Virus record (IMG/VR): IMGVR_UViG_3300036828_000354
Span: 1-44,795 of that record
Strand: one strand, 5' to 3'
DNA: 44,795 nt
Source: a virus
In this document: positions 14,925 through 36,444 of the stretch, piece by piece
Position numbering within the stretch: the first letter of the stretch is position 1
How the letters are laid out: every line of letters begins with the position of its first letter
The notes under the pieces: generated by a model
Told to the model about the DNA's origin: nothing
Databases searched by the model: none
What the model saw: the letters and a program-made list of their open reading frames with translations, nothing else
Translations under genes and position numbers: made by a program

Positions 14925-15522
14925 GTCTTTAACAGTTGGCTCAATTGTATTGGCTACCAGTGGTCCTACTCTAATGGTTGCCGGCTGCAGTACGAGCTGG
15001 ATTACCACAGCGGTCGATGATATTCCTACTATCTCAAACATCGTAGGTAGTGTCCTGTCTATTGTTGCTCTAGGAAATCCCGCACTTTCTCCTGAACTTT
15101 CTGCACTTATCAATGCCGGCCTTCAAGCAGCTAGTGCTGCTCTCGTTACTGTTCAGAGTTTGATCAGTGATTATAAGACTGCTCCTAATGCATCTATACT
15201 TACTAAGATTGATGCTGCTCTTACTGATGTTCAGACTAATCTGAGTAGCGTACTTTCTGCGGCGCATATCAAAGATGCGGCGTTGCAGGCTACGATCTCT
15301 ACGGGAATTAGCCTGGCTTTGACTGTTCTTTCAACCATTCAACTTCTTATTCCTGCCACAGTGTCTAGCCGGAAGAGCGCCGCTTTGAATGTCTCAGTTG
15401 ATCGGTCACAGGCTAAGAATGCTGTTCCTCAGAAGATTTCTGTTGTCCCGTCCAATACTCTTAAGATGATGTACAATGTGGTAGCTTCTAGCTGTGGCTA
15501 CTCGGCTCAGGTGGTGAAGTAA
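14902..15522 (+). CDS. Lipoprotein with Tat-like signal
   Basis: 206 aa, SD GGAG. The N-terminus MERRNLLKSLTVGSIVLATS has a twin-arginine-like RRNLLK motif and a lipobox V-A-G-C with Cys about residue 29. The mature part is Ala/Leu/Ser/Thr-rich and mostly helical, with few charges. It lies between endolysin-like and papain-like genes, so an outer-membrane lysis role (outer spanin-like) or superinfection exclusion are both conceivable. Neither is shown. Confidence 0.75.
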   Translation: MERRNLLKSLTVGSIVLATSGPTLMVAGCSTSWITTAVDDIPTISNIVGSVLSIVALGNPALSPELSALINAGLQAASAALVTVQSLISDYKTAPNASILTKIDAALTDVQTNLSSVLSAAHIKDAALQATISTGISLALTVLSTIQLLIPATVSSRKSAALNVSVDRSQAKNAVPQKISVVPSNTLKMMYNVVASSCGYSAQVVK

Positions 15523-16364
15523 TGCCGGATCTTACTAAATTACCTAGGTTAGGTAAGTTACCTGCTCAGCATCCAGTAGGAGCACCACTCTTCAGAAAGT
15601 ATACTGTAGACTTGCCTCAAGCTCCAACTACATTCACTTGTACTAACAAGATGACTACTCTAGGTCTCATGATGAATGATGAACTTGGAGACTGTGCTAT
15701 TGCTGGACCTGGTCACCAGGTCCAGTTTTGGACTGCACAGGCTGGAAAGCAAGTAATCATTCCAGACAGTGCCATCCTTAGTGCTTATGAAGCTGTGGGA
15801 GGCTATGTTCCTGGTCAGCCTAACACGGACAATGGTTGTGTCCTTGTTAATGTAATGGACTACTGGCAGAAGACCGGGATTGGTGGACATCAGATCGGAG
15901 GCTGGGCCGCTCTGATGCCTCCACCATCTTCAATGTCAGCTCATACCTCTCTTTGGCATAAGATCTTTGGTCATGAACCAAGAATCAAAGATACTGGGTC
16001 GTGGATTAATGATTTCCAGAATGCTCTTTATTATTTTGAAGGAGCGGTAATTGGTCTAGCTCTGCCAAGTAAACTTCAGGGTTACACTAATATTGAAACC
16101 TGGGATTTTGTTCCTTCTAGTGATCCAAATTCGCAGCCTGGGACCTGGGGTGGTCACTGTGTCATTTTGATACCTGGCTACGATACCACCTACTGTAATC
16201 TAGTTAGTTGGGGTAAGATCTATAAAGTCTCATGGCGCTTTCTAGCGGCTTACATGGATGAGGCTCGTGTAGCAATTTCAAAAGATATTCTCTCTGGAGA
16301 TAAGTCTCCTGAGGGATTTGACTATGCAACTCTCAATGCTGATATTCTAGCGAGGAACGGATAA
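15522..16364 (+). CDS. Papain-fold-like protein, putative cysteine peptidase
   Basis: 280 aa. 'MNDELGDCAIAGPGHQVQFW' places Cys58 like a papain-fold nucleophile, 'GTWGGHCVILIPGY' places His212, and 'LVSWGKIYKVSW' resembles the Asn/Ser-Trp-Gly element. Spacing fits a C1/C39-type fold. No signal peptide. It could process proteins or cut peptide cross-links in lysis. The start overlaps the lipoprotein stop. Catalysis is inferred from motifs only. Confidence 0.6.
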   Translation: MPDLTKLPRLGKLPAQHPVGAPLFRKYTVDLPQAPTTFTCTNKMTTLGLMMNDELGDCAIAGPGHQVQFWTAQAGKQVIIPDSAILSAYEAVGGYVPGQPNTDNGCVLVNVMDYWQKTGIGGHQIGGWAALMPPPSSMSAHTSLWHKIFGHEPRIKDTGSWINDFQNALYYFEGAVIGLALPSKLQGYTNIETWDFVPSSDPNSQPGTWGGHCVILIPGYDTTYCNLVSWGKIYKVSWRFLAAYMDEARVAISKDILSGDKSPEGFDYATLNADILARNG

Positions 16365-16582: not shown

Positions 16583-16837
16583 TTATTCAAAATCGTAAGT
16601 CAACTCACAGTTATGATAGACAGTCTTTGATTTTGGTCTATCAGTACTAGGGTCAATTATAGTGGTGTCAGACTTAACATCACAGACTGCGGTTACATTT
16701 CCTTTAGAGCTATGATCTATGTCCAACTTAATTTTAGTTGGACTAATCTTGGTCGTTAGGGGTTTCTGACGATTCGTTGGATTCGCGCTGTTGAGTTGAA
16801 AGAATAGCACGGATACGAGGATCAACTTCATCATCAT
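16583..16837 (-). CDS. Small secreted protein
   Basis: 84 aa. The N-terminus MMMKLILVSVLFFQLNSANP is a signal peptide with likely cleavage after NSA. Two Cys (CDVK and HNCEL) may form a disulfide. The gene overlaps the MazG-like gene by 95 bases in another frame, but the start has SD GGAG and the C-terminal two thirds are not covered by any other frame. It is the last gene of the early strand. Function unknown. Confidence 0.62.
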   Translation of the reverse strand: MMMKLILVSVLFFQLNSANPTNRQKPLTTKISPTKIKLDIDHSSKGNVTAVCDVKSDTTIIDPSTDRPKSKTVYHNCELTYDFE

Positions 16838-17288
16838 AGTATTTTTTCTCCAGTTTAGTTAGTTCATCTGGCCTCGACAATATTCCTTCAATATCAGGAG
16901 GAATATAGTCGGGGCCTTTTGGCGTCTTTGTACCGTATTTCTGGCCATCAATCGCCTTAATATTTGTCTTAGTCATGTTGCTTCTATGCACTTCGGTAAA
17001 GATTCTTTCAATTGGAATTCCGTACGAAATTGCAGTACCAACAAGTACATAGAGTGAATCTGCGATTCCGTCTGCAATTTCAACAATATTTTGGTTTTTA
17101 GGATGGAGTTGGATTTCATGATCATTTATTCTAACAATCCCCATAGCGTCAAAAGTTTCTTGTACTTCTTCTTTTATTAATCTATATCGAAGAAATGTTA
17201 CCTCAGATGGAACATTGAGAGTAGGTTCTTTTGGTATATAGTGACCATACTTATCATGAAATTCAGTTAACATCTTTTCAATCGACAT
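16743..17288 (-). CDS. MazG/PRA-PH-like nucleotide pyrophosphohydrolase
   Basis: 181 aa. The metal-binding pattern of the all-alpha NTP pyrophosphatases is visible: E40-E41-x-x-E44 in 'RYRLIKEEVQETFDAM' and E70-x-x-D73 in 'VEIADGIADSLYVLVG'. Family members cleave dNTP/NTP to NMP and pyrophosphate. Next to a likely dCMP hydroxymethylase and a glycosyltransferase-like gene, a dCTP-clearing role like T4 gp56 is attractive (inference). The C-terminal about 55 residues are a charged extension. Confidence 0.83.
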   Translation of the reverse strand: MSIEKMLTEFHDKYGHYIPKEPTLNVPSEVTFLRYRLIKEEVQETFDAMGIVRINDHEIQLHPKNQNIVEIADGIADSLYVLVGTAISYGIPIERIFTEVHRSNMTKTNIKAIDGQKYGTKTPKGPDYIPPDIEGILSRPDELTKLEKKYYDDEVDPRIRAILSTQQRESNESSETPNDQD

Positions 17289-17715
17289 CTAACCCCCTTC
17301 TTTCTATGAATTTCCTTATGACCTCTACTCCATGTCCTTTAACATAACAAGGACCTTTTAACAATGGTAATGGATCTTTGTGTTTTCCTACTTGAAATTC
17401 TGCTAACTGTAGAACATTAAGTACGGCTGTCATCTTAACATCAGGATAGTAGATAACATATAAGACAATAGCATTTCTTGACATTCGCTTACAGACTTCA
17501 AACTGACGAATATCATTAACTGATTCCCAAGGATAACAGCTTTGTTCTGTTCCCTTATCTCCTATTTTTGTCTCATAAAAGGTAACGAAGCTATACTTAA
17601 TGTGCATGTTGTCTGGAAGACCTAACATTACCTTATCACTAATCTTGATAACTACTCCGCCTATCTCCTTCTTAATCTTAAAAGCAAGCATCGCGCCAAA
17701 GGTTGATTCTTTCAT
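17278..17715 (-). CDS. PD-(D/E)XK-like nuclease, possible resolvase
   Basis: 145 aa from ATG 17715, chosen because its SD GGAG is well spaced and it forms an ATGA overlap with the upstream 52-aa gene; an earlier ATG at 17733 has no good SD. Core 'GLPDNMHIKYSFVTFYETKIG' gives D-x(n)-E-x-K, followed by 'WESVNDIRQFEVCKRMSRNA', the order seen in VRR-NUC/Hjc-like nucleases. A role in recombination or DNA branch processing is likely but not certain. Confidence 0.6.
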   Translation of the reverse strand: MKESTFGAMLAFKIKKEIGGVVIKISDKVMLGLPDNMHIKYSFVTFYETKIGDKGTEQSCYPWESVNDIRQFEVCKRMSRNAIVLYVIYYPDVKMTAVLNVLQLAEFQVGKHKDPLPLLKGPCYVKGHGVEVIRKFIERRGLDVD

Positions 17716-17870
17716 TGTACTAACTCCAGACATTTTTCTTTAAATGATTTGAATCCACTTTCAACCCAATCAACATGAGCTTTTCCAGGACCAAGATGAA
17801 TCAACCAGGCTATATGCCACATCATTATAGTTGCTAACTTAACAAGAAACCCCTTGTCTTCTTTAGTCAT
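17712..17870 (-). CDS. Hypothetical 52-aa protein
   Basis: ATG at 17870 overlaps the stop of the glycosyltransferase-like gene (ATGA), and its stop overlaps the nuclease start (ATGA). Product begins MTKEDKGFLVKLATIMMWHI and is helical, with a Trp/His-rich middle. The tight coupling on both sides is the main evidence that it is translated. Function unknown. Confidence 0.65.
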   Translation of the reverse strand: MTKEDKGFLVKLATIMMWHIAWLIHLGPGKAHVDWVESGFKSFKEKCLELVQ

Positions 17871-18871
17871 CTCATTAGTTCCTCTATTGTCGTGATCACT
17901 TTTTCTTTTTCAGAAACGTTTGCCTCTAGCCATTCTCTCTGAGCAACGAGTCTTTCATCATATTTCTCTGGGGTATCAAGAGCTTCAAATTCCGCAGGGG
18001 TTCCTTGATATGGCTCACCCATAATAATTGCGTCTCTAGGATCTGAATAGATGATGCTTTCAGCCCAAGCTGAATTTAGATAACGAGTTCTCCACCATCC
18101 AGATCCAGCTGAAGGGTATCCACAAGAAAGAACACCAAAACTTTTAGAGAATAATTCGATGGTCATGTTCTCACTTAACACGAACCCATCGCCCATGCGT
18201 TTGTTACCAACGTAGAAAACGGGCAACTCAAATCCTTGTTTATTGATCCAACGAGTATGATCGGATAGAGCGGCCATAACCCATTGTTTAGTCTTATTAT
18301 AGAAGGTGGGTATAAAAACAGTGGGATACTTGACCCATCTTGAAGGGTCAACAGTGACCAAATTGGCATTGTAGTTTCCTCTCATTAAGAATTCATGATC
18401 ACCCCAAGGAAACATAGGAGCTAATACAGGAGCATTATTCCCAGCTACGTCAATTGACATCATCAAAGATAAACTACTATAGGTTTGTTCTATAATCTCT
18501 GGATCATATGGAAAATTCTTATAGTCAAGATATCTTAGCCACCTGATAAGAGTATATCTAACTGACGGACCGAAGTTACAAAAACTCCAATCATCTGCAA
18601 AGACTGCAAATTTTCCTTCCATCTGACTCATCGCGTAATGAGTCTCAGGAACATTACCTGAAGACATAGAGTTAAGAGGAGCGACTCCAAGAAAAGCATA
18701 GTTATACTTCCATGTTAAGTCTTCTCCAATGATTACTTTTCTCCTCTCTACATCATGCCCCATGTCTTTTAATATGTCTTCTAATAAATAAGAGAATGTC
18801 ATATAGTCACCTCGGACTTTAGTACTACCTGACATTCTGCTAGTGTAGCCAGAGATTAGAATCTTACCCAT
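17867..18871 (-). CDS. Glycosyltransferase-like protein, possible DNA-modifying enzyme
   Basis: 334 aa. The N-terminal 'KILISGYTSRMSGSTKVRGDY' and 'FSYLLEDILKDMGHDVERR' look like the first Rossmann half of a GT-B enzyme. The C-terminal 'FSKSFGVLSCGYPSAGSGWW', 'ESIIYSDPRDAIIMG' looks like the donor-binding half, ending in long helices. T4 alpha- and beta-glucosyltransferases share this fold and act on hydroxymethylcytosine in DNA. Linkage to the nucleotide genes supports that role, but sequence similarity to them is not evident by eye. Confidence 0.6.
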   Translation of the reverse strand: MGKILISGYTSRMSGSTKVRGDYMTFSYLLEDILKDMGHDVERRKVIIGEDLTWKYNYAFLGVAPLNSMSSGNVPETHYAMSQMEGKFAVFADDWSFCNFGPSVRYTLIRWLRYLDYKNFPYDPEIIEQTYSSLSLMMSIDVAGNNAPVLAPMFPWGDHEFLMRGNYNANLVTVDPSRWVKYPTVFIPTFYNKTKQWVMAALSDHTRWINKQGFELPVFYVGNKRMGDGFVLSENMTIELFSKSFGVLSCGYPSAGSGWWRTRYLNSAWAESIIYSDPRDAIIMGEPYQGTPAEFEALDTPEKYDERLVAQREWLEANVSEKEKVITTIEELMR

Positions 18872-19193
18872 CTAGGTCTCCCCATTCAAGATATGATGAT
18901 TCTCCCATAGCTTCTTCAACTTCTTCTTTGGTTCTAAGTAACTTATCTATAAATTCTTCTTTGATCTTAACGTTTTCAGGAACTTCGGCTCCTAAAGCTT
19001 CTCCACCTGGGTTGATCTTAAGAGAATGAGTTTTCATTATAGCCATAGCAAATCCAGGTGCTTTAACTATATTCGCTCCAAGAAACCTACCTGGATCAGC
19101 AAATGAGATATAGAACAATTTCTCTGGTTGACCTTGTTCTTCAGCTATCATCTGCACCATTCTTATAACTGCAGGTACGGTATCATCTGTCAT
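18864..19193 (-). CDS. Hypothetical protein
   Basis: 109 aa. Contains 'FYISFADPGRFLGANIVKAPGFAMAI', which looks like a compact alpha/beta fold, and an acidic helical C-terminus (RTKEEVEEAMGESSYLEW). Overlaps both neighbours slightly in the same operon as the polymerase. No recognised family. Confidence 0.75.
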   Translation of the reverse strand: MTDDTVPAVIRMVQMIAEEQGQPEKLFYISFADPGRFLGANIVKAPGFAMAIMKTHSLKINPGGEALGAEVPENVKIKEEFIDKLLRTKEEVEEAMGESSYLEWGDLDG

Positions 19194-19456
19194 CTCGTAA
19201 CCGCCTTTGGAAACTTATTCAGAATAGTTAGAAGAATTAATCCCCAATGAGAGATCACCTGATAACCTTCATATTTGGTAGCAAGACCTCTAACTACAAG
19301 ATCTGATCTACCCTGCTTACTAGCTAAGTTACCATCCCATGTAACAATCGTAAGTTGAATCAAAACATCTTTTTCCGCACCTGATAACTCATCCCATATT
19401 TTCTGAGCCTCAGGTAAAGTCAATGCCATCCATACTACATCATTTAGTCTCTTCAT
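19190..19456 (-). CDS. Hypothetical protein
   Basis: 88 aa, mostly helical, Trp-rich (VVWMAL, KIWDEL, TWDGN, SHWGLI). Start overlaps the upstream stop and its stop overlaps the downstream start (ATGA), so it is translationally coupled. No recognised family. Confidence 0.72.
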   Translation of the reverse strand: MKRLNDVVWMALTLPEAQKIWDELSGAEKDVLIQLTIVTWDGNLASKQGRSDLVVRGLATKYEGYQVISHWGLILLTILNKFPKAVTR

Positions 19457-19671
19457 CTTGCGACCTCAGCTTTAATTTCTGGAATATATTTCTCAACAGC
19501 ATTCGTAGCAATTATGTCGCATTCTTCCCAAGTAGATCTAAAGTTTTGCTTAGACTTAACTAAGATACTAATATTTCCTGCTTCAACTGTTAATTCACCG
19601 AGTTTAGAATTGACGTATTCGGCTATTAATTCTTTAATCTTTTTCTGATCAATTTCTACTTTTATCTTCAT
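19453..19671 (-). CDS. Hypothetical protein
   Basis: 72 aa from ATG 19671, chosen because GGAGGTG lies 8 bases upstream and it forms ATGA with the polymerase stop; a longer frame to 19731 would lie inside the polymerase. Begins MKIKVEIDQKKIKELIAEYV, with beta strand then helix. Unknown function. Confidence 0.72.
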   Translation of the reverse strand: MKIKVEIDQKKIKELIAEYVNSKLGELTVEAGNISILVKSKQNFRSTWEECDIIATNAVEKYIPEIKAEVAR

Positions 19672-21566
19672 TCTGTACACCTCCTCCAATTTTCTCCTAC
19701 ACTTACTTGCCACAGAAGTGGTACGCGGCATGGAATACGCGCGTCAGGAGCCTCAAGTAACTCTTTGAAATCTTTGCTTTTGGACCTGTCTTCGATATCC
19801 CCATCAATCTCATCGTGTACAGTAGCCCGAAGGACCATCGTAAGAAATTTACGGTTTCGGTAAGTCTCGAGTAGCTTGACCTTAAGAGTATCGGCTGCGG
19901 TTCCTTGGATAATTGCGTTAAGAGCTGAGTGTAGTCGCTCACCGGTGGGATACCTTCTGCGTCGGCCCATGACCGTATGGACATACCCGCGATTCTTTGC
20001 AACTCGCATTGCCTCTTGAGATAACTTCTTAGCCTCTGGAAATTTCTCATCGTATTCCTTTGAAATTGCAAAAGCTCTTTGCATCGCACAAGTTGAACGA
20101 TGATTAGCTTTACACCACTGATCTCCTGGAGGAACTCCACAATTGCAAGGACAACCTAATTTCCGGGCAAGTTTGGGAATACCCATCGTGTACAACTTGC
20201 CGAAATTGTTATGCTTTGCATCTTTTCTCTTCTGACCGAGGAGATCTGCAACGAGTTGATGAAAGTCCATCGTCGGATCTTTACAATAATCCGCAATGAG
20301 TCTGTCAGACTTACTGTAATGCGCAAACCAACGGAATTCAATCTGAGAAGCGTCAGCCGAAACGTACAGTTTTCCGTCGTCTGGGATGAATAGTTCTCGG
20401 ATGATCCAGGCTGCGATTTCATATTCCTCCAGTTGACTCTCAACCTTCATTACTTGCTGAACGTTTATACCCTTCTTCTCTTTTCCTCCAGAAGAAGCAT
20501 AACGTCCAGTGACTGTTCCAAACTCGTCACTTCTTAATTGATGAAGCTGATATCTTAGAATGTTATTAGCATCTAATAGATTACGATACTTTATAAGATA
20601 TTTGGTTAATAGTGAATGAAGCTTTCTAGCTAATAGAATAGCTCTAACGCATGGGTGTTGTATTCGTCTGAGATACTCTTCTTCAAAAGTGATGTCGCCG
20701 CCGAGTTCTTCTTCTCTTCTAGGATATTCTAATCCTAAAACATTAAACAATCTCTTAAGATCTGGACCTGAGTTAGGATTGACTCTTACTCCAGTCTGAG
20801 CATACAAAGAAAGAATCGCGGATTGATGTGCCTCTTCAACTTCTTTAATCCATCTTTCTAGTTTAGGTCGATCTATTCGAGCACCGGCTCGTTCCATTGC
20901 TACTGTCGAGTAGATAAGCTGGTCTTCAAGCTCGCAGACAGCAGTAAGTCCTTGACTGTCAATGTCTTTTTGTTGAGTAGTGTCGAGTTCACGGTGTAGG
21001 AAAGCGTCATGTTCTGCATAGGAACCAACCTCGGATGCAGCCATGTCTGCGATGTTGCTTTTGTCGTCTTTTGTTTCTTCTTTTTCGATTCCAAGAATAT
21101 CGTTCGATAGTTGATTGAGATTGAAGCGTCGGCGATTCTCATCAAGTAAAGCCGCTTTGAAAGCAGGATCATGTACTTTAACATCGAGTTCCTCGAGATC
21201 AAGTCCCCAACTATGGCATACTTGAATATCACCCTTCGCGTTGAGAATACTGAGATGTCTGCTCCTAAGATTTCCTTTAGCCCAACGCCGTACGGCGTTC
21301 TCGTCAAGATTTCCCCCAGCTCGGTGACCGACGGGAAGATAGTACCGTTTCCCAAGGGGATCGCAAATTGACATTCCAGCGAGTCTAGCTCGATATATGT
21401 TCTTATTTGGGAGCTCGAATTCAGTATCAAAACCAAACCTCTCAGTCAAAGGTATTTGAGAAAAGTCGGGTAGCTCAGCCGGAGCTACCCAACCAGTAGG
21501 GGCGTGGTTTCCACTAAATAGAGATCCCACCATATCGTCTTTTGGATATTTCTTACTCGGCGACAT
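19668..21566 (-). CDS. polA: Family A DNA polymerase with 3'-5' exonuclease and Cys-rich finger insertion
   Basis: 632 aa. Exonuclease motif I 'FGFDTEFE' near residue 45 and a later 'YAEHDAFLHRELD'. Polymerase motif A 'VSADASQIEFRW' (about 400), motif B 'RKDAKHNNFGKLYTMG' (about 450) and motif C 'TVHDEID' (about 583). Motif A has Ala for the usual Tyr (DASQIE), and motif B ends YT rather than YG. Residues about 470-492 carry CPCNC, QWC and STC, a possible zinc-binding insertion next to the fingers. No 5'-3' nuclease domain. Likely the phage replicative polymerase. Confidence 0.95.
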   Translation of the reverse strand: MSPSKKYPKDDMVGSLFSGNHAPTGWVAPAELPDFSQIPLTERFGFDTEFELPNKNIYRARLAGMSICDPLGKRYYLPVGHRAGGNLDENAVRRWAKGNLRSRHLSILNAKGDIQVCHSWGLDLEELDVKVHDPAFKAALLDENRRRFNLNQLSNDILGIEKEETKDDKSNIADMAASEVGSYAEHDAFLHRELDTTQQKDIDSQGLTAVCELEDQLIYSTVAMERAGARIDRPKLERWIKEVEEAHQSAILSLYAQTGVRVNPNSGPDLKRLFNVLGLEYPRREEELGGDITFEEEYLRRIQHPCVRAILLARKLHSLLTKYLIKYRNLLDANNILRYQLHQLRSDEFGTVTGRYASSGGKEKKGINVQQVMKVESQLEEYEIAAWIIRELFIPDDGKLYVSADASQIEFRWFAHYSKSDRLIADYCKDPTMDFHQLVADLLGQKRKDAKHNNFGKLYTMGIPKLARKLGCPCNCGVPPGDQWCKANHRSTCAMQRAFAISKEYDEKFPEAKKLSQEAMRVAKNRGYVHTVMGRRRRYPTGERLHSALNAIIQGTAADTLKVKLLETYRNRKFLTMVLRATVHDEIDGDIEDRSKSKDFKELLEAPDARIPCRVPLLWQVSVGENWRRCTE

Positions 21567-22008
21567 ATACCTTTCCAGCTACCTCAACTATACATCCCTT
21601 TTCCAAAAGAACTGTTAATCCTGTCTTATCAGCATACTCCTCAACACATAGAACAGTTTGTATCTCAGTATTAGCTATCATCTTAGAGCATATAAAGCAA
21701 GGAGTACAAGAACAGTACATAGCATAAGCCCTACTAAGATCAGCACACTGTAGTAAAGCATTCTGTTCGGCGTGGACTGCCATACAGAGGGAAGTATCCC
21801 CAGGCTTAGAACCAGCGCCCAAACAAGGAACATCAATGCAATGATCGAAATTCTTAGGAACTCCGTTATAGCCCGTGCTAAGGACATGTCCGTCTCGATC
21901 CGTTATAATGGCCCCGACTTTACGTCTAATACAAGTACTACGAGCAGCTACTAACTTAAGCATCTCTAGATAGTACTCAACTTTGGTTAACCTTCCCGGG
22001 GAGCTCAA
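21553..22008 (-). CDS. dCMP deaminase (TTG start)
   Basis: 151 aa from TTG 22008, with GGAGG six bases upstream. Zinc motif 'HAEQNALL' (His79, Glu81) and 'PCFIC' (Cys104, Cys107) are those of ComEB-type dCMP deaminases, which make dUMP for thymidylate synthesis. A CxxC/H-rich middle (FDHCIDVPC) may hold a second zinc. It overlaps the ThyA-family gene by 32 bases and the polymerase by 14, so all three are coupled. Confidence 0.92.
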   Translation of the reverse strand: MSSPGRLTKVEYYLEMLKLVAARSTCIRRKVGAIITDRDGHVLSTGYNGVPKNFDHCIDVPCLGAGSKPGDTSLCMAVHAEQNALLQCADLSRAYAMYCSCTPCFICSKMIANTEIQTVLCVEEYADKTGLTVLLEKGCIVEVAGKVYVAE

Positions 22009-22834
22009 GTAAAACCTCCAATGCGTGACGTTTATCTTGCTCTAGAGCCGTTGCATAACTCTTCCATGGTTCATTTAACACAGCCGTTGGTTCTTTTCTT
22101 CGTAAAATATTAGATAAAGTAAAACTTCCAGGAAGTACATTAGTTATCCTGGGAGAATAGTGATAGTTAGCATCTTCAGAAGTTAACACAACCATTGCCC
22201 CTTGTAGATCTTTTTCGTATAAATGACTAGAGGCAAGATTCATTGTCATAGTTCCTACTTTTAAATCTAGAAAAGAAGCTATGACATTAGTGTACTGACT
22301 AAAAGTAAAGTAATCGTATGGGAATCCTAACCAAACATCTGAACTTCTCATGTTTACTGTGACATGCAACTTTTCATCTCTAACAAGCCATTGAATAGAT
22401 ATCGTACATGGTATGTCGAGAGAATTTTCTGGTGTTGGGGTCCATATTGTTGCAACAGCCTGTCTTGAATCCTGTTTTGCCAGCGTTTCTAAAATGTATA
22501 AAAGCTGAGGTTTAAGACGTGGACCATAGGCTCCTGATAGAACCTGACCATCATCACTGAAATTCTTCATTACTGAGTTATATGAAGTTAAGAAATCTAC
22601 TTCATTCAGTCCGGCTTGAATCCAAAGCCACTCGGCTATCATGAATCTATAATTCAAGTCTCTATTCGGACTTAGAATGATGTTGTTTAAAGCTGGCTCA
22701 ATCTCTACTGTTACGTTCATTATCTCTCTTGTTTTATTTCCCCTAGGAGAAGTATGCGCACCACCTTGAATAAGGAACGACATCATTTTTCTCCACGCGT
22801 GTGACACACTTCCTTCTTTAATCAATAGAGCCAT
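21977..22834 (-). CDS. ThyA-family enzyme, predicted dCMP hydroxymethylase
   Basis: 285 aa. Thymidylate-synthase family blocks: 'GAYGPRL' (about 101), 'RQAVATIW' (about 123), nucleophile Cys143 in 'DIPCTISIQW' and 'MRSSDVWLGFPYDYFTFSQY'. The residue that is Asn in ThyA (E. coli Asn177) is Asp174 here, 31 residues after the Cys; the Cys-Asn and Cys-Asp spacing is also 31 in E. coli ThyA and T4 gp42. That Asp is what shifts T4 gp42 to dCMP. A separate ThyX gene further frees this enzyme from dTMP synthesis. dUMP hydroxymethylation is a less likely alternative. Confidence 0.85.
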   Translation of the reverse strand: MALLIKEGSVSHAWRKMMSFLIQGGAHTSPRGNKTREIMNVTVEIEPALNNIILSPNRDLNYRFMIAEWLWIQAGLNEVDFLTSYNSVMKNFSDDGQVLSGAYGPRLKPQLLYILETLAKQDSRQAVATIWTPTPENSLDIPCTISIQWLVRDEKLHVTVNMRSSDVWLGFPYDYFTFSQYTNVIASFLDLKVGTMTMNLASSHLYEKDLQGAMVVLTSEDANYHYSPRITNVLPGSFTLSNILRRKEPTAVLNEPWKSYATALEQDKRHALEVLLELPGKVNQS

Positions 22835-23744
22835 AGATACGTTCCTTAATGATGTCAGCTAAGACCTGTGGATTTGATCCCTTAAAACGTTTAAGGTAGG
22901 ATGGGTGAGGAATGAATGAAGTCTTATATACCTGACTTGCTCGATCATTGTACCATGCTTGAGCTCCCTGCCCCATTAAGAAAATATGCTCAACTGAAGG
23001 AAGCCAAATCAACATCGAACCTAAAGAATGAGGAATGTTCAAAGGACTATAGGCATTTGAGATAGCAATTTGATGTTCTTCTAATCCAGCCAAAGTTAAG
23101 GCAGTATTAAAGTATCCACTAGATCCATTTAAAGCATGAAATGGAACATCAATACTATCATGATTAGGTCGATCTCCAATAAAGAGAAACTTAGCTTTAC
23201 GAGAACCCACCATTCCTTTAGGAGCTGGCCCATGATTGAATAGTTCCATGTCTCCTAAGATTCTAGTATAGTCAAATTGAGTATAGTCAAGAATTGTTCT
23301 AACATTACCATAACTATAAGTCCAACTAAGATAGGCACTATATACTTTAAGAAGCTTTTCTTCAGACTTAAGAAAATCCTTTGGATCTTGTATTTTCTTT
23401 TTATAGTTTTCTAAGACTGTTCCTTTAGGAGGAAGACAAATATACTGAAGAACATTCTTTGAATCACAGAGCCTCATAAAGAGTCTTTGACCTTCATTAC
23501 CTAGAAGATCCGTTCCTCTAGCAACTGGACCGTAGATTCGTTCACCCAGCCAAAGACGATCATGAACTACATCAGTTTCAGCGTTAATAGACTCGTCAAG
23601 TATCTTAAGATAGTGAGCCACGATATCTGAACCGGGAGGTGGGGGACCCTCATGTTTGTATTCAAAACCACACTTTTCAAGTGCTCTAGCGAAAGTTGTT
23701 TTGCCTCCTCCATCAGGCCCCTCTAGAATTACAACTTGCCCCAT
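22818..23744 (-). CDS. Thymidylate-kinase-like domain fused to uracil-DNA-glycosylase-like domain
   Basis: 308 aa from ATG 23744 (SD GGAGG; shares bases with the upstream stop). Residues 9-17 are the P-loop GPDGGGKTT, and about 62-68 'HDRLWLGE' is the DR motif of TMK/dNK kinases. Residues about 185-285 look like a UDG-superfamily fold: 'KFLFIGDRPN', 'SNAYSPL', 'HIFLMGQGAQAW' and 'PHPSYLKRF'. The kinase half may phosphorylate modified dNMP. The UDG-like half may bind rather than cut a base. The fusion is unusual. Confidence 0.78.
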   Translation of the reverse strand: MGQVVILEGPDGGGKTTFARALEKCGFEYKHEGPPPPGSDIVAHYLKILDESINAETDVVHDRLWLGERIYGPVARGTDLLGNEGQRLFMRLCDSKNVLQYICLPPKGTVLENYKKKIQDPKDFLKSEEKLLKVYSAYLSWTYSYGNVRTILDYTQFDYTRILGDMELFNHGPAPKGMVGSRKAKFLFIGDRPNHDSIDVPFHALNGSSGYFNTALTLAGLEEHQIAISNAYSPLNIPHSLGSMLIWLPSVEHIFLMGQGAQAWYNDRASQVYKTSFIPHPSYLKRFKGSNPQVLADIIKERIYGSID

Positions 23745-24082
23745 CACTTTACCTCCGGCATGGTTATAGCAAAAAAGAAATCACAAACTTGGCACTGACA
23801 GTGGAAGTGCTCGAAAGATATATGAGCACACATGACCTGATGCTTGTGAGTTTTCTTTTCTCCAGAAAATGGATTATGTACTTCATGCTCTATTTCAGCT
23901 GGTCTATTTCCAGGACAATAGGAAATGGGAAAGATACTATGACTCTTAAAGATGTTATCCACAATCTGACACTTGGGACACCTCGCATATGCCACGGGCA
24001 TATGTCTAAAAGGCTTATATTTGAATTGTGGAAATGGAATTACCGGGAGGGAAGGAATGATTTCTTCTAGTTCACTTGACAT
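23744..24082 (-). CDS. Zinc-binding hypothetical protein
   Basis: 112 aa. 'ARCPKCQIVD' and 'HCQCQVCDFFF' give two CxxC pairs, with several His between (HKHQVMCAH). The N-terminus is Pro/Phe-rich. It starts just after the terminator region and its stop overlaps the kinase-fusion start. No recognised family beyond zinc ribbon-like. Confidence 0.68.
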   Translation of the reverse strand: MSSELEEIIPSLPVIPFPQFKYKPFRHMPVAYARCPKCQIVDNIFKSHSIFPISYCPGNRPAEIEHEVHNPFSGEKKTHKHQVMCAHISFEHFHCQCQVCDFFFAITMPEVK

Positions 24083-27485: not shown

Positions 27486-27978
27486 TCTCTATCCTCCTTG
27501 TAAGATACCATCTAGCTTTCTCCAAATCTTCTAGGGAATTACTATTTTTCTTCCCAGCACGGCTGATATATTTAACAGTGTTACCCAAATGAAAGTCCAG
27601 ATTCCACGCTTCAATGACTTTAATAGCCTCATATGGGTTATTGCCTCCTCCATAGTGACGTGGATGGTTTACTGCTTCATCATGTCTTGGTGGTGCTTCT
27701 GGCTTACTTGCATATAACGGAGAATCTAAATAAAGTGAACCGATTTTTGTTCTATAGCCAAAACAATAAGCTAAATCGTTTGGTAACCATTGCATAACTA
27801 TAAGGTTAACGTTATCACGATATTCAGGACCCGCTACTATTATTTCAAGTCCTTTTTGATCTGAAATACTCCATGTCCAATCTCGTGCTTCATTTCCTAA
27901 GATTTCTCTTAGTCGTGGGTACACTTCTTCATGAAAGGATTTTCTAAATTCAGTATGCTTCATCATGTCATTTATCAA
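27442..27978 (-). CDS. DUF3310-containing protein
   Basis: 178 aa. The C-terminal about 65 residues ('VNHPRHYGGGNNPYEAIKVI', 'LGNTVKYISRAGKK', 'LEDLEKARWYLTRRIE') are a clear DUF3310 domain, often annotated near phage nucleotide metabolism. The first about 100 residues are an extra unassigned domain. Start could be TTG 27978 (TTGA overlap with ThyX stop, GAGG upstream) or ATG 27966. Confidence 0.85.
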   Translation of the reverse strand: MINDMMKHTEFRKSFHEEVYPRLREILGNEARDWTWSISDQKGLEIIVAGPEYRDNVNLIVMQWLPNDLAYCFGYRTKIGSLYLDSPLYASKPEAPPRHDEAVNHPRHYGGGNNPYEAIKVIEAWNLDFHLGNTVKYISRAGKKNSNSLEDLEKARWYLTRRIENEKQRIRTENQRNS

Positions 27979-28667
27979 TGTGGTTTCCTCATATTCGAAA
28001 TTTGAGTTTCCCCTGGAATGATGTCATCAAAGAGTAGTGGCACATACTTTTTAAACTCCTCGAGAAGAGGATCACAAATCTGACGAATCTGAGGGTGAGC
28101 CTCTTTGGTTGTACGCATTAACAGCAGATGTCTCCACGATCTAAGATTGGCTGAAGTCATGATCTTAGCTGCTAAAGCATTTGGAAACACGCTTCTTGCT
28201 TCTTGAGGTCGCCAACCTTTTTTAAGAAGACTTTTATACCGTGATTCAGCATCTACTATTCCATACACCCAGTCTCTATCATATTTACAATCTTCTTCAT
28301 GAATCTTAATCTCAGATGAACAAGCCTTACACTCTACTCCAACAATCGGGTAAATGAAAGACGGGGGCATCTTCTTTTCATAGTTTACGAATCTAGTGGA
28401 TTCTTGAGTAAAAGACATAAGGCGATGACGAACCCACTCATGAGTAATCCCTCTGTCCATAACGGCGATAACTGAACAACTAGCGTGCTCAACCACAGAC
28501 CAGTCGCCGTGATCCACAACAACGTTCTGTATGAAACGTGTCCATGTATTTTCATTCATGTTCTCCTCTGACCGATGTGATATTCGTGCTCCATACTCTA
28601 TGTTTCGTAGACCAAAGATCAAATGATCTGGATCCATAATAGATGCTGATGCTTTAATGATTTTCAT
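27975..28667 (-). CDS. thyX: Flavin-dependent thymidylate synthase ThyX
   Basis: 230 aa. The ThyX signature RHRxxSxxxxSxR appears as 'RHRLMSFTQESTRF' (residues 80-93). Other family blocks: 'HGDWSVVEHASCSVIAVMDR' and 'RTTKEAHPQIRQIC'. A CxxC pair with a later Cys (CKAC, EEDC) at about 113-127 is an insertion. It makes dTMP from dUMP using FAD, so the phage has a dTMP route independent of its ThyA-family protein. Confidence 0.95.
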   Translation of the reverse strand: MKIIKASASIMDPDHLIFGLRNIEYGARISHRSEENMNENTWTRFIQNVVVDHGDWSVVEHASCSVIAVMDRGITHEWVRHRLMSFTQESTRFVNYEKKMPPSFIYPIVGVECKACSSEIKIHEEDCKYDRDWVYGIVDAESRYKSLLKKGWRPQEARSVFPNALAAKIMTSANLRSWRHLLLMRTTKEAHPQIRQICDPLLEEFKKYVPLLFDDIIPGETQISNMRKPH

Positions 28668-35982: not shown

Positions 35983-36444
35983 TCAGTTTGATACATCCGA
36001 CGGCCAATAATAAGGGAGTGTCGCGTCCTCATTAGGCCAAAATTGTCTATAATGTAATGGGAGTTTTCTTACTAGATTAGATCGATGTGATCTGTGAAAC
36101 TCTTCTTTTCCCAGCCAAGGTGGAGGAATTTGCTCACCAGCATTATGAAGTGGAATCTGTATAGTGTTGCTGTAGCCCCTTGAACACCATTCCCCTATTG
36201 CGCATGCTAGATACAACTTTAACCATTCTTCGTGTCCTCTCCACATCTGAATTACTGGATGATTTCTCCACTGAGAATTGCTGTAATCAAAGGGAACTAA
36301 TGAGAGAAGATTTTTAGGAAGAAATGGTTCATTAAGTAGAACTTCTAAAATCTGAGCGGCCTCGACTCTTTGTTTCCCCAATCTTTGTTGATCGAGAAAC
36401 TCCATCGATTGAACGAAACTCTGGACCGGTAAAAATGTTTGCGT
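35983..36444 (-). CDS. Pyrimidine-dimer-glycosylase-like protein (apparent ACG start)
   Basis: 153 aa if read from ACG 36444, giving MQTFLPVQSFVQSMEFLDQQ, then 'RLGKQRVEAAQIL' and 'NHPVIQMWRGHEEWLKLY'. These match the MSMEG_6728-like family, whose members typically begin M-Q-T-F-L-P. SD AGGAG is 6 bases before ACG and overlaps the stop of the HTH gene. The only upstream in-frame codons before that stop are CAT and ATT. ATG at 36405 would remove the family N-terminus and has no SD. Confidence 0.75.
   Translation of the reverse strand, partial: TQTFLPVQSFVQSMEFLDQQRLGKQRVEAAQILEVLLNEPFLPKNLLSLVPFDYSNSQWRNHPVIQMWRGHEEWLKLYLACAIGEWCSRGYSNTIQIPLHNAGEQIPPPWLGKEEFHRSHRSNLVRKLPLHYRQFWPNEDATLPYYWPSDVSN

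Follow-up and report, generated by a model that had tools for sequence, protein, structure and literature searches.

A predicted gene cluster for hydroxymethylcytosine formation and glycosylation in an uncultivated phage, including a glycosyltransferase with the fold of T4 beta-glucosyltransferase

The association of thymidylate synthase (TS), PRA-PH and dCMP deaminase domains with modified cytosine is known from the MetaGPA work, in which these domains co-occur on contigs that experimentally carry modified cytosine, and in which no residues distinguish modified from unmodified phage contigs better than those at positions 177 and 147 (PMC8670742). The significance of Asp177, together with adjoining PRA-PH and dCMP deaminase, as a mark of cytosine-modified phages is already published in that work. 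For the T4 dCMP hydroxymethylase (gp42), residue D145 is reportedly responsible for activating the water from which the hydroxyl is formed. Further, the DNA of Stenotrophomonas phage AXL3 was resistant to 35 enzymes whose sites contain G/C, and cleavage was seen only with two enzymes that recognise A/T-only sites (PMC7504290).

The window analysed here is the whole stretch of 44,795 nucleotides of the record IMGVR_UViG_3300036828_000354, which is derived from an uncultivated phage. All of the genes noted in the initial annotation of this DNA are found, on the minus strand, at the positions listed in Table 1, and the PRA-PH/MazG pyrophosphatase, the dCMP deaminase, the polymerase and the separate ThyX are, based on their Pfam matches, what they had been described to be. 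It is very probable that this cluster specifies a pathway for hydroxymethylcytosine formation and glycosylation, yielding a cytosine which is modified in two stages. In the T4-style hydroxymethyl/glucosyl-cytosine pathway that was initially proposed, the parts concerning hydroxymethylcytosine and glycosylation are thus retained, with the specification of glucose being reduced to that of a sugar.

Table 1. Genes of the predicted cytosine modification cluster and the ThyX gene in the window
Product	Coordinates	Strand	Evidence
PRA-PH/MazG-type nucleoside triphosphate pyrophosphatase	16743..17288	-	PF01503 E 1.2e-11; phrog_671 E 2.3e-26
Small PD-(D/E)XK-like nuclease (putative)	17278..17733	-	GLPD-x12-ExK motif only
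Glycosyltransferase, T4 beta-glucosyltransferase fold, 334 aa	17867..18871	-	AlphaFold2 and Foldseek
PolA, family A DNA polymerase with 3'-5' exonuclease domain	19668..21566	-	PF00476 E 1.8e-44; PF01612 E 4.8e-6
dCMP deaminase	21553..22008	-	PF00383 E 9.6e-19; phrog_174 E 1e-40
ThyA-family predicted dCMP 5-hydroxymethylase	21977..22834	-	PF00303 E 1.2e-22; residue alignment
Kinase-UDG-fold fusion	22818..23747	-	phrog_761 thymidylate kinase E 3e-12; AlphaFold2/Foldseek
ThyX, flavin-dependent thymidylate synthase	27975..28667	-	PF02511 E 1.9e-38

In a residue-by-residue alignment of the ThyA-family protein with E. coli ThyA, T4 gp42 and SPO1-type gp29, its Cys143 corresponds to C146 of E. coli ThyA and C148 of T4 gp42, and its Asp174 to N177 and D179 of these two proteins, with the Cys and the Asp being separated by 31 residues, as they are in T4 gp42 and MilA. 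The initial observation that an Asp located 31 residues after Cys143 replaces the Asn which recognises dUMP is therefore borne out by this alignment. The residue E68 aligns with E. coli E58, a position involved in the activation of methylene-tetrahydrofolate, and both the catalytic Cys and the catalytic Glu of the superfamily are kept. Further, D140 is located at the position of T4 D145, where E. coli ThyA has L143 and where an Asp is also present in SPO1-type gp29 and MilA; T144 matches T4 gp42 at the position of E. coli H147; and M162 is common to this protein and T4 gp42. The marks of dTMP-forming thymidylate synthases, viz. Asn177 and His147, are thus both absent. The best match of this protein in the PDB is the CMP 5-hydroxymethylase MilA (E 2.7e-20), which shows an identical D-x-x-C-T...D spacing. 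Based on the presence of D174 at the Asn177 position, the sharing of D140, T144 and M162 with T4 gp42, and MilA being the closest solved relative, this protein is most likely, as judged from its sequence, a dCMP hydroxymethylase. Because the phage also encodes ThyX, the ThyA-family protein is not needed for dTMP.

The glycosyltransferase gave no significant match in Pfam and PDB sequence searches carried out with the single sequence as well as with a profile, and its family is absent from the sequence libraries that were searched. However, when its AlphaFold2 model (pLDDT 93.3) was compared by Foldseek with 350,542 PDB chains, the top six matches were all to T4 beta-glucosyltransferase (BGT), with E values from 5.2e-8 to 1e-6 and TM of about 0.6, and the alpha-glucosyltransferase AGT was also among the top 25. 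The structural comparison with AGT and BGT that had been suggested for this "glycosyltransferase-like" protein is thus positive, the protein having a GT-B fold that is nearest to that of T4 BGT. The match to BGT is structural only, as hhalign against T4 BGT gave a probability of 7% over 65 columns, i.e. no detectable sequence similarity, and due to this we refer to the protein as BGT-like in fold and do not place it in the BGT sequence family. The residue D93, which is invariant in 38 of 38 sequences, directly follows the strand 88-92, and BGT D100 follows the fourth strand; by this comparison of strand positions, we propose that D93 is placed like the catalytic D100 of BGT. Likewise, we propose that this enzyme transfers a sugar onto hydroxymethylcytosine in DNA, with the acceptor being a predicted one. 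The earlier statement that the pathway is built from unrelated enzymes is incorrect for the hydroxymethylase, which is a homologue of T4 gp42, and also for the glycosyltransferase, in view of its T4 BGT fold.

The gene upstream of the hydroxymethylase, which starts at a GTG at 23747 or at the ATG at 23744 that was chosen initially, encodes a fusion protein. Its description as a nucleotide kinase is correct for the N-terminal part, a P-loop deoxynucleotide kinase, but a C-terminal domain with the fold of uracil-DNA glycosylases (UDG) had been overlooked. In Foldseek searches with the model of this protein (pLDDT 93.1), the top matches were family-4 UDG and UdgX, and thymidylate/deoxynucleoside kinases were also found. 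The HP motif of the UDG-fold domain is largely retained, and residues 176-309 contain no Cys, so that the iron-sulphur cysteines of family-4 UDG are absent. For the kinase part, we propose the role of T4 gp1, i.e. that of an hm-dCMP kinase. The small open reading frame that is located between the glycosyltransferase and MazG genes in its clade had no match in the Pfam search, and its putative assignment as a PD-(D/E)XK-like nuclease is from the motif given in Table 1, which is unchanged in six sequences.

The order of this cluster, in which the kinase, dCMP deaminase, PolA and PRA-PH/MazG genes are neighbours of the ThyA-family gene, is kept in related but diverged phages, and the E-D-C-T-D residue set is present in 135 of the 145 family members that were found using a search pattern which favoured this clade; based on these two observations, the gene set is beyond what is expected by chance. 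Among the glycosyltransferase relatives analysed, which are the best 80 from a pattern search and many of them closely related, all 25 that are on DNA of at least 18 kb adjoin such a hydroxymethylase, with the kinase also present, and Asp is found at position 177 in all 49 TS proteins from glycosyltransferase loci in which this position is readable. In related loci, the glycosyltransferase never occurs together with a SAM methyltransferase (two-sided Fisher p 1e-5, a value which ignores shared ancestry), and on the tree of the hydroxymethylases one gene is substituted for the other several times; this tree-based count provides a fairer test. Due to this mutual exclusion and repeated exchange, the last modification step looks like a swappable slot. 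Some relatives pair the glycosyltransferase gene with a UDP-galactopyranose mutase, and galactofuranose as a DNA modification was not found in the literature searched. A broader proposal, which we make tentatively, is that a portable hydroxymethylcytosine core is combined with a swappable decorating step (a BGT-fold glycosyltransferase, a SAM methyltransferase leading to methylated hmC, or others), and that galactofuranose is added in the branches with UDP-galactopyranose mutase. A nucleotide search revealed no close cultured relative of this phage, and a genome scan with the TS alignment identified five contigs in MAGs, from which no reliable host could be named.

Other interpretations of these genes also need to be considered. 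The ThyA-family enzyme could be a dCMP methylase forming 5-methyl-dC, as in phage Xp12, which is described as containing 5-methylcytosine, with the glycosyltransferase acting elsewhere, e.g. on a host surface sugar. The change from Asn to Asp alone gives such activity in engineered thymidylate synthases, as cited in the MetaGPA work (PMC8670742); however, the Asp at D140 is shared with both of the aligned hydroxymethylases (T4 gp42 and SPO1-type gp29) and not with ThyA, and the linkage to this TS in all 25 long loci is of a protein with a DNA-glucosyltransferase fold, which make this interpretation unlikely. The least probable interpretation is that the enzyme makes hydroxymethyl-dUMP and that the phage carries modified thymine in an SPO1-like manner. 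Although there is a relationship between this family and dUMP hydroxymethylases, and some relatives are labelled 'deoxyuridylate hydroxymethyltransferase', SPO1-type gp29 has Asn at 177 and N at 147, where D and T are found in both the present protein and T4 gp42; ordinary dTMP is served by ThyX and dCMP deaminase; and the sites resistant to cleavage in AXL3 are those containing G/C.

It could also be suggested that the two enzymes make a pentosyl 5-hydroxycytosine of the RB69/Thanatos type, which lacks the methylene, with arabinose being transferred, since Morganella phage Rgz1 encodes, in an arabinose-type module, a homologue which is 24% identical to the glycosyltransferase and is flanked by a sugar isomerase and a nucleotidyltransferase. 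However, in the TS-like protein of Rgz1 the catalytic Glu58 is missing and the D143 position is occupied by E, whereas the present protein retains both the Glu and the Asp, and the isomerase and nucleotidyltransferase are absent from the window and seven related contigs, so that this possibility is highly improbable.

In the hydroxymethylcytosine and glycosylation pathway that we favour, the PRA-PH/MazG enzyme would act before replication as a dCTPase in the role of T4 gp56, converting dCTP, its predicted substrate, to dCMP, which would then be hydroxymethylated by the ThyA-family enzyme with methylene-tetrahydrofolate. The resulting hm-dCMP would be converted to hm-dCTP by the kinase and the host NDP kinase, and PolA would place it into DNA instead of cytosine, with full replacement being the predicted outcome. 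The dCMP deaminase would drain dCMP and make dUMP for ThyX, and through these two enzymes dTTP would be made from that pool as well. Following replication, a sugar would be added to the 5-hydroxymethyl group by the BGT-fold enzyme. Its donor, probably a UDP-linked nucleotide-sugar, is assumed to come from the host because no genes for UDP-galactopyranose mutase, NTP-transferase, SIS isomerase or epimerase were found in the clade of the window. DNA modified in this way would be hidden from restriction enzymes.

The predicted pathway would represent the known anti-restriction disguise seen in T4, carried out with a glycosyltransferase family new to the sequence libraries searched. This unnamed family, found at at least 461 places in viral contigs and also in cultured Gordonia phages such as GMA2 and Forza, is tied by this prediction to DNA glycosylation, and a small number of enzymes can be put forward for testing. 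There is a demand for new DNA glycosyltransferases that differ in sugar use, both for 5hmC mapping tools and for probing type IV restriction. Further, with glycosyltransferase and methyltransferase being exchanged on one core, cytosine modifications that have not yet been described are predicted, and these fall in a cultured phage (AXL3) or in phages with full genomes (GMA2 and DSL-LC01).

In comparison to the known systems, T4 (gp56, gp42, gp1, gp43 and BGT) shares with this locus a dCTPase, a homologous Asp-bearing dCMP hydroxymethylase, a kinase, a polymerase, a BGT-fold glycosyltransferase and a dCMP deaminase, with the logic of the pathway being the same. The window differs from T4 in having a family A polymerase, a PRA-PH/MazG pyrophosphatase, a kinase fused to a UDG-like domain, ThyX in place of a second ThyA, and a glycosyltransferase that lacks detectable BGT sequence similarity. 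The 5-carbamoyloxymethyl-dC phages of MetaGPA have the core of TS with Asp177, PRA-PH and dCMP deaminase in common with the window, but their decoration is by a carbamoyltransferase, which is found neither in the window nor in 43 related records. The RB69-type arabinosylated T4-like phages are represented by the distant glycosyltransferase homologue of Rgz1, whose TS-like protein differs at catalytic positions and whose accompanying sugar genes the window lacks. In AXL3, MazG, the kinase-UDG fusion, TS with Asp177, dCMP deaminase and ThyX are all shared with the window, whereas a SAM methyltransferase is present in place of the glycosyltransferase; the resistance pattern of AXL3 DNA given above is thus in favour of the predicted pathway. 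The Actinomycetia phage DSL-LC01 shares the kinase, TS with Asp177, dCMP deaminase, PolA, MazG and a 29%-identical glycosyltransferase; however, its glycosyltransferase adjoins a UDP-galactopyranose mutase that the window lacks, and a furanose sugar is therefore suggested in DSL-LC01.

In an alignment that included E. coli ThyA, the T4 dCMP hydroxymethylase gp42, SPO1-type gp29 and phage relatives, Asp174 of the ThyA-family protein is found at the position of Asn177 (E. coli numbering), and the substitution on which the initial annotation was based is thus real. Besides this position, three others (viz. Leu143, His147 and Gln165) tell the enzyme classes apart. At the first of these, Asp is present in the window protein, T4 gp42 and the SPO1-type dUMP hydroxymethylase, while at the other two the window protein shares Thr and Met, respectively, with T4 gp42. 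The T4 residue, D145, reportedly activates the water from which the hydroxyl derives (PMC6400193). The mTHF-activating Glu is also retained, and the top PDB sequence match is the CMP 5-hydroxymethylase MilA, above all thymidylate synthases. The residues surrounding D174 point to a predicted preference for hydroxymethylation over methylation and for cytosine over uracil. Asp177 is an established sign of cytosine modification, and in MetaGPA positions 177 and 147 best separated modified from unmodified phage contigs (PMC8670742). In the ThyA-family-like protein of Morganella phage Rgz1, Asp177 is present and the catalytic Glu58 is missing, a combination that would fit a 5-hydroxy rather than a hydroxymethyl product.

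Coordinates of the features discussed
Source	Position	Feature
Window	17278-17733	small PD-(D/E)XK-like protein, no Pfam match
Window	17867-18871 (-)	glycosyltransferase-like protein (GT)
Window	21977-22834 (-)	ThyA-family protein
Window	22818-23747	kinase fusion
Window	35983-36405	pyrimidine dimer DNA glycosylase (PF03013, E 6.5e-19), T4 DenV family
Rgz1 (L008)	15063-15767	ThyA-family-like protein
Locus L042	11034-12128	UDP-galactopyranose mutase beside GT
Locus L048	5844-6950	same
Locus L006	10028-11125	same
Locus L004	6650-7474	SAM methyltransferase (PF13489) near D177 protein; also in other loci
Locus L131	9984-10841	same
Locus L115	7971-9074	diverged C5-cytosine DNA methylase (PF00145) close to D177 protein; some relatives
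Locus L019	7906-9048	same

The 44,795-base viral record comes from a myovirus-like phage: the plus strand carries the tail sheath and baseplate genes up to roughly 14 kb, and a replication/nucleotide block occupies the minus strand from about 16.6 kb; ThyX lies about 4 kb upstream of this block. Transcription of the block runs from the kinase fusion through the ThyA-family protein, the dCMP deaminase, the family A polymerase and three small ORFs to GT, the small nuclease-like protein and, last, the PRA-PH/MazG pyrophosphatase, and the order kinase-ThyA-deaminase-polymerase-GT-nuclease-MazG recurs in contigs whose ThyA-family identity is as low as about 52%. The nuclease-like protein, which this clade has between GT and MazG, might cleave host DNA that is unmodified, or it might serve in recombination. 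The PRA-PH, dCMP deaminase and MafB19-like deaminase families, which co-occur with thymidylate synthase in modified contigs (PMC8670742), are all matched in the window.

GT shows no significant Pfam match and no match in a PDB profile search, and is too diverged from T4 beta-glucosyltransferase (BGT) to be aligned by sequence. However, when its AlphaFold2 model (38-sequence alignment; mean pLDDT 93.3, pTM 0.91) was compared with 350,542 PDB chains, the top six matches were all T4 BGT (E 5.2e-8 to 9.5e-7, TM 0.57 to 0.63), and the T4 alpha-glucosyltransferase was within the top 25. The catalytic Asp of BGT is D100; D93 of GT, invariant in 38/38 sequences and immediately preceded by the fourth strand, is its putative counterpart. 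Among the best 80 relatives from a capped pattern search, many of them close kin, 25 lie on 18 kb of DNA or more, and each of these has the ThyA-family protein and the kinase; Asp177 is present in 49/49 ThyA-family proteins of GT loci in which the position is readable.

In 80 ThyA-family loci, GT is present in 13 and a SAM methyltransferase resembling AXL3 gp31 lies near the ThyA-family gene in 43, the two never occurring together. On the ThyA-family tree the GT label needs 8 changes and the methyltransferase label 9, well-supported branches requiring at least 5 and 6 changes, respectively, and the sister loci L114 and L115 carry different labels. Due to this mutual exclusion and repeated switching, we take the two enzymes to decorate one hydroxymethyl group in alternative ways, this group being a putative acceptor for the methyltransferase.

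The N-terminal half of the kinase fusion has a P-loop thymidylate/deoxynucleoside kinase fold and the C-terminal half (residues 176-309) a family-4 UDG fold (AlphaFold2 and Foldseek). The latter has no cysteines, hence no iron-sulphur cysteines, and in most members carries G-D/E-x-x-N and HP motifs. The fusion is conserved across most relatives, some having the kinase alone. Speculatively, it may join an hm-dCMP kinase to a base-reading or base-excising domain, which perhaps clears U or hmU.

In regard to the sugar, UDP-galactopyranose mutase adjoins GT in the Actinomycetia phage DSL-LC01 and two contigs, suggesting galactofuranose transfer in these phages, and in Rgz1 a GT homologue (24% identity) lies inside an arabinose-type module. 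Two GT paralogues, in or near tandem, are seen in L083, L086, L089, L075, L076 and L102 (also L042, L045 and L048), as though each phage produced two kinds of sugar or of linkage. Since none of the sugar enzymes looked for was found in the window's clade, its donor is likely a host nucleotide-sugar.

The cultured Stenotrophomonas phage AXL3, a relative with the same gene core plus ThyX, supplies experimental, though indirect, support for C (or G) being modified in its DNA: of 37 enzymes, the only two that cut it recognise sites made up of A/T alone. Its authors assigned these genes to the thymidylate pathway (PMC7504290). The T4-style hydroxymethyl and sugar pathway proposed initially is supported, but not its construction from unrelated enzymes, as the predicted hydroxymethylase is homologous to gp42 and GT shares the BGT fold; further, the predicted sugar may be glucose or another. 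New here are the GT family and its association with the hydroxymethylase, as well as the swap between GT and the methyltransferase and the kinase-UDG fusion, whereas the pathway as such is of a kind already known, and the proposed donor has its parallel in the host-derived UDP-glucose of T4.
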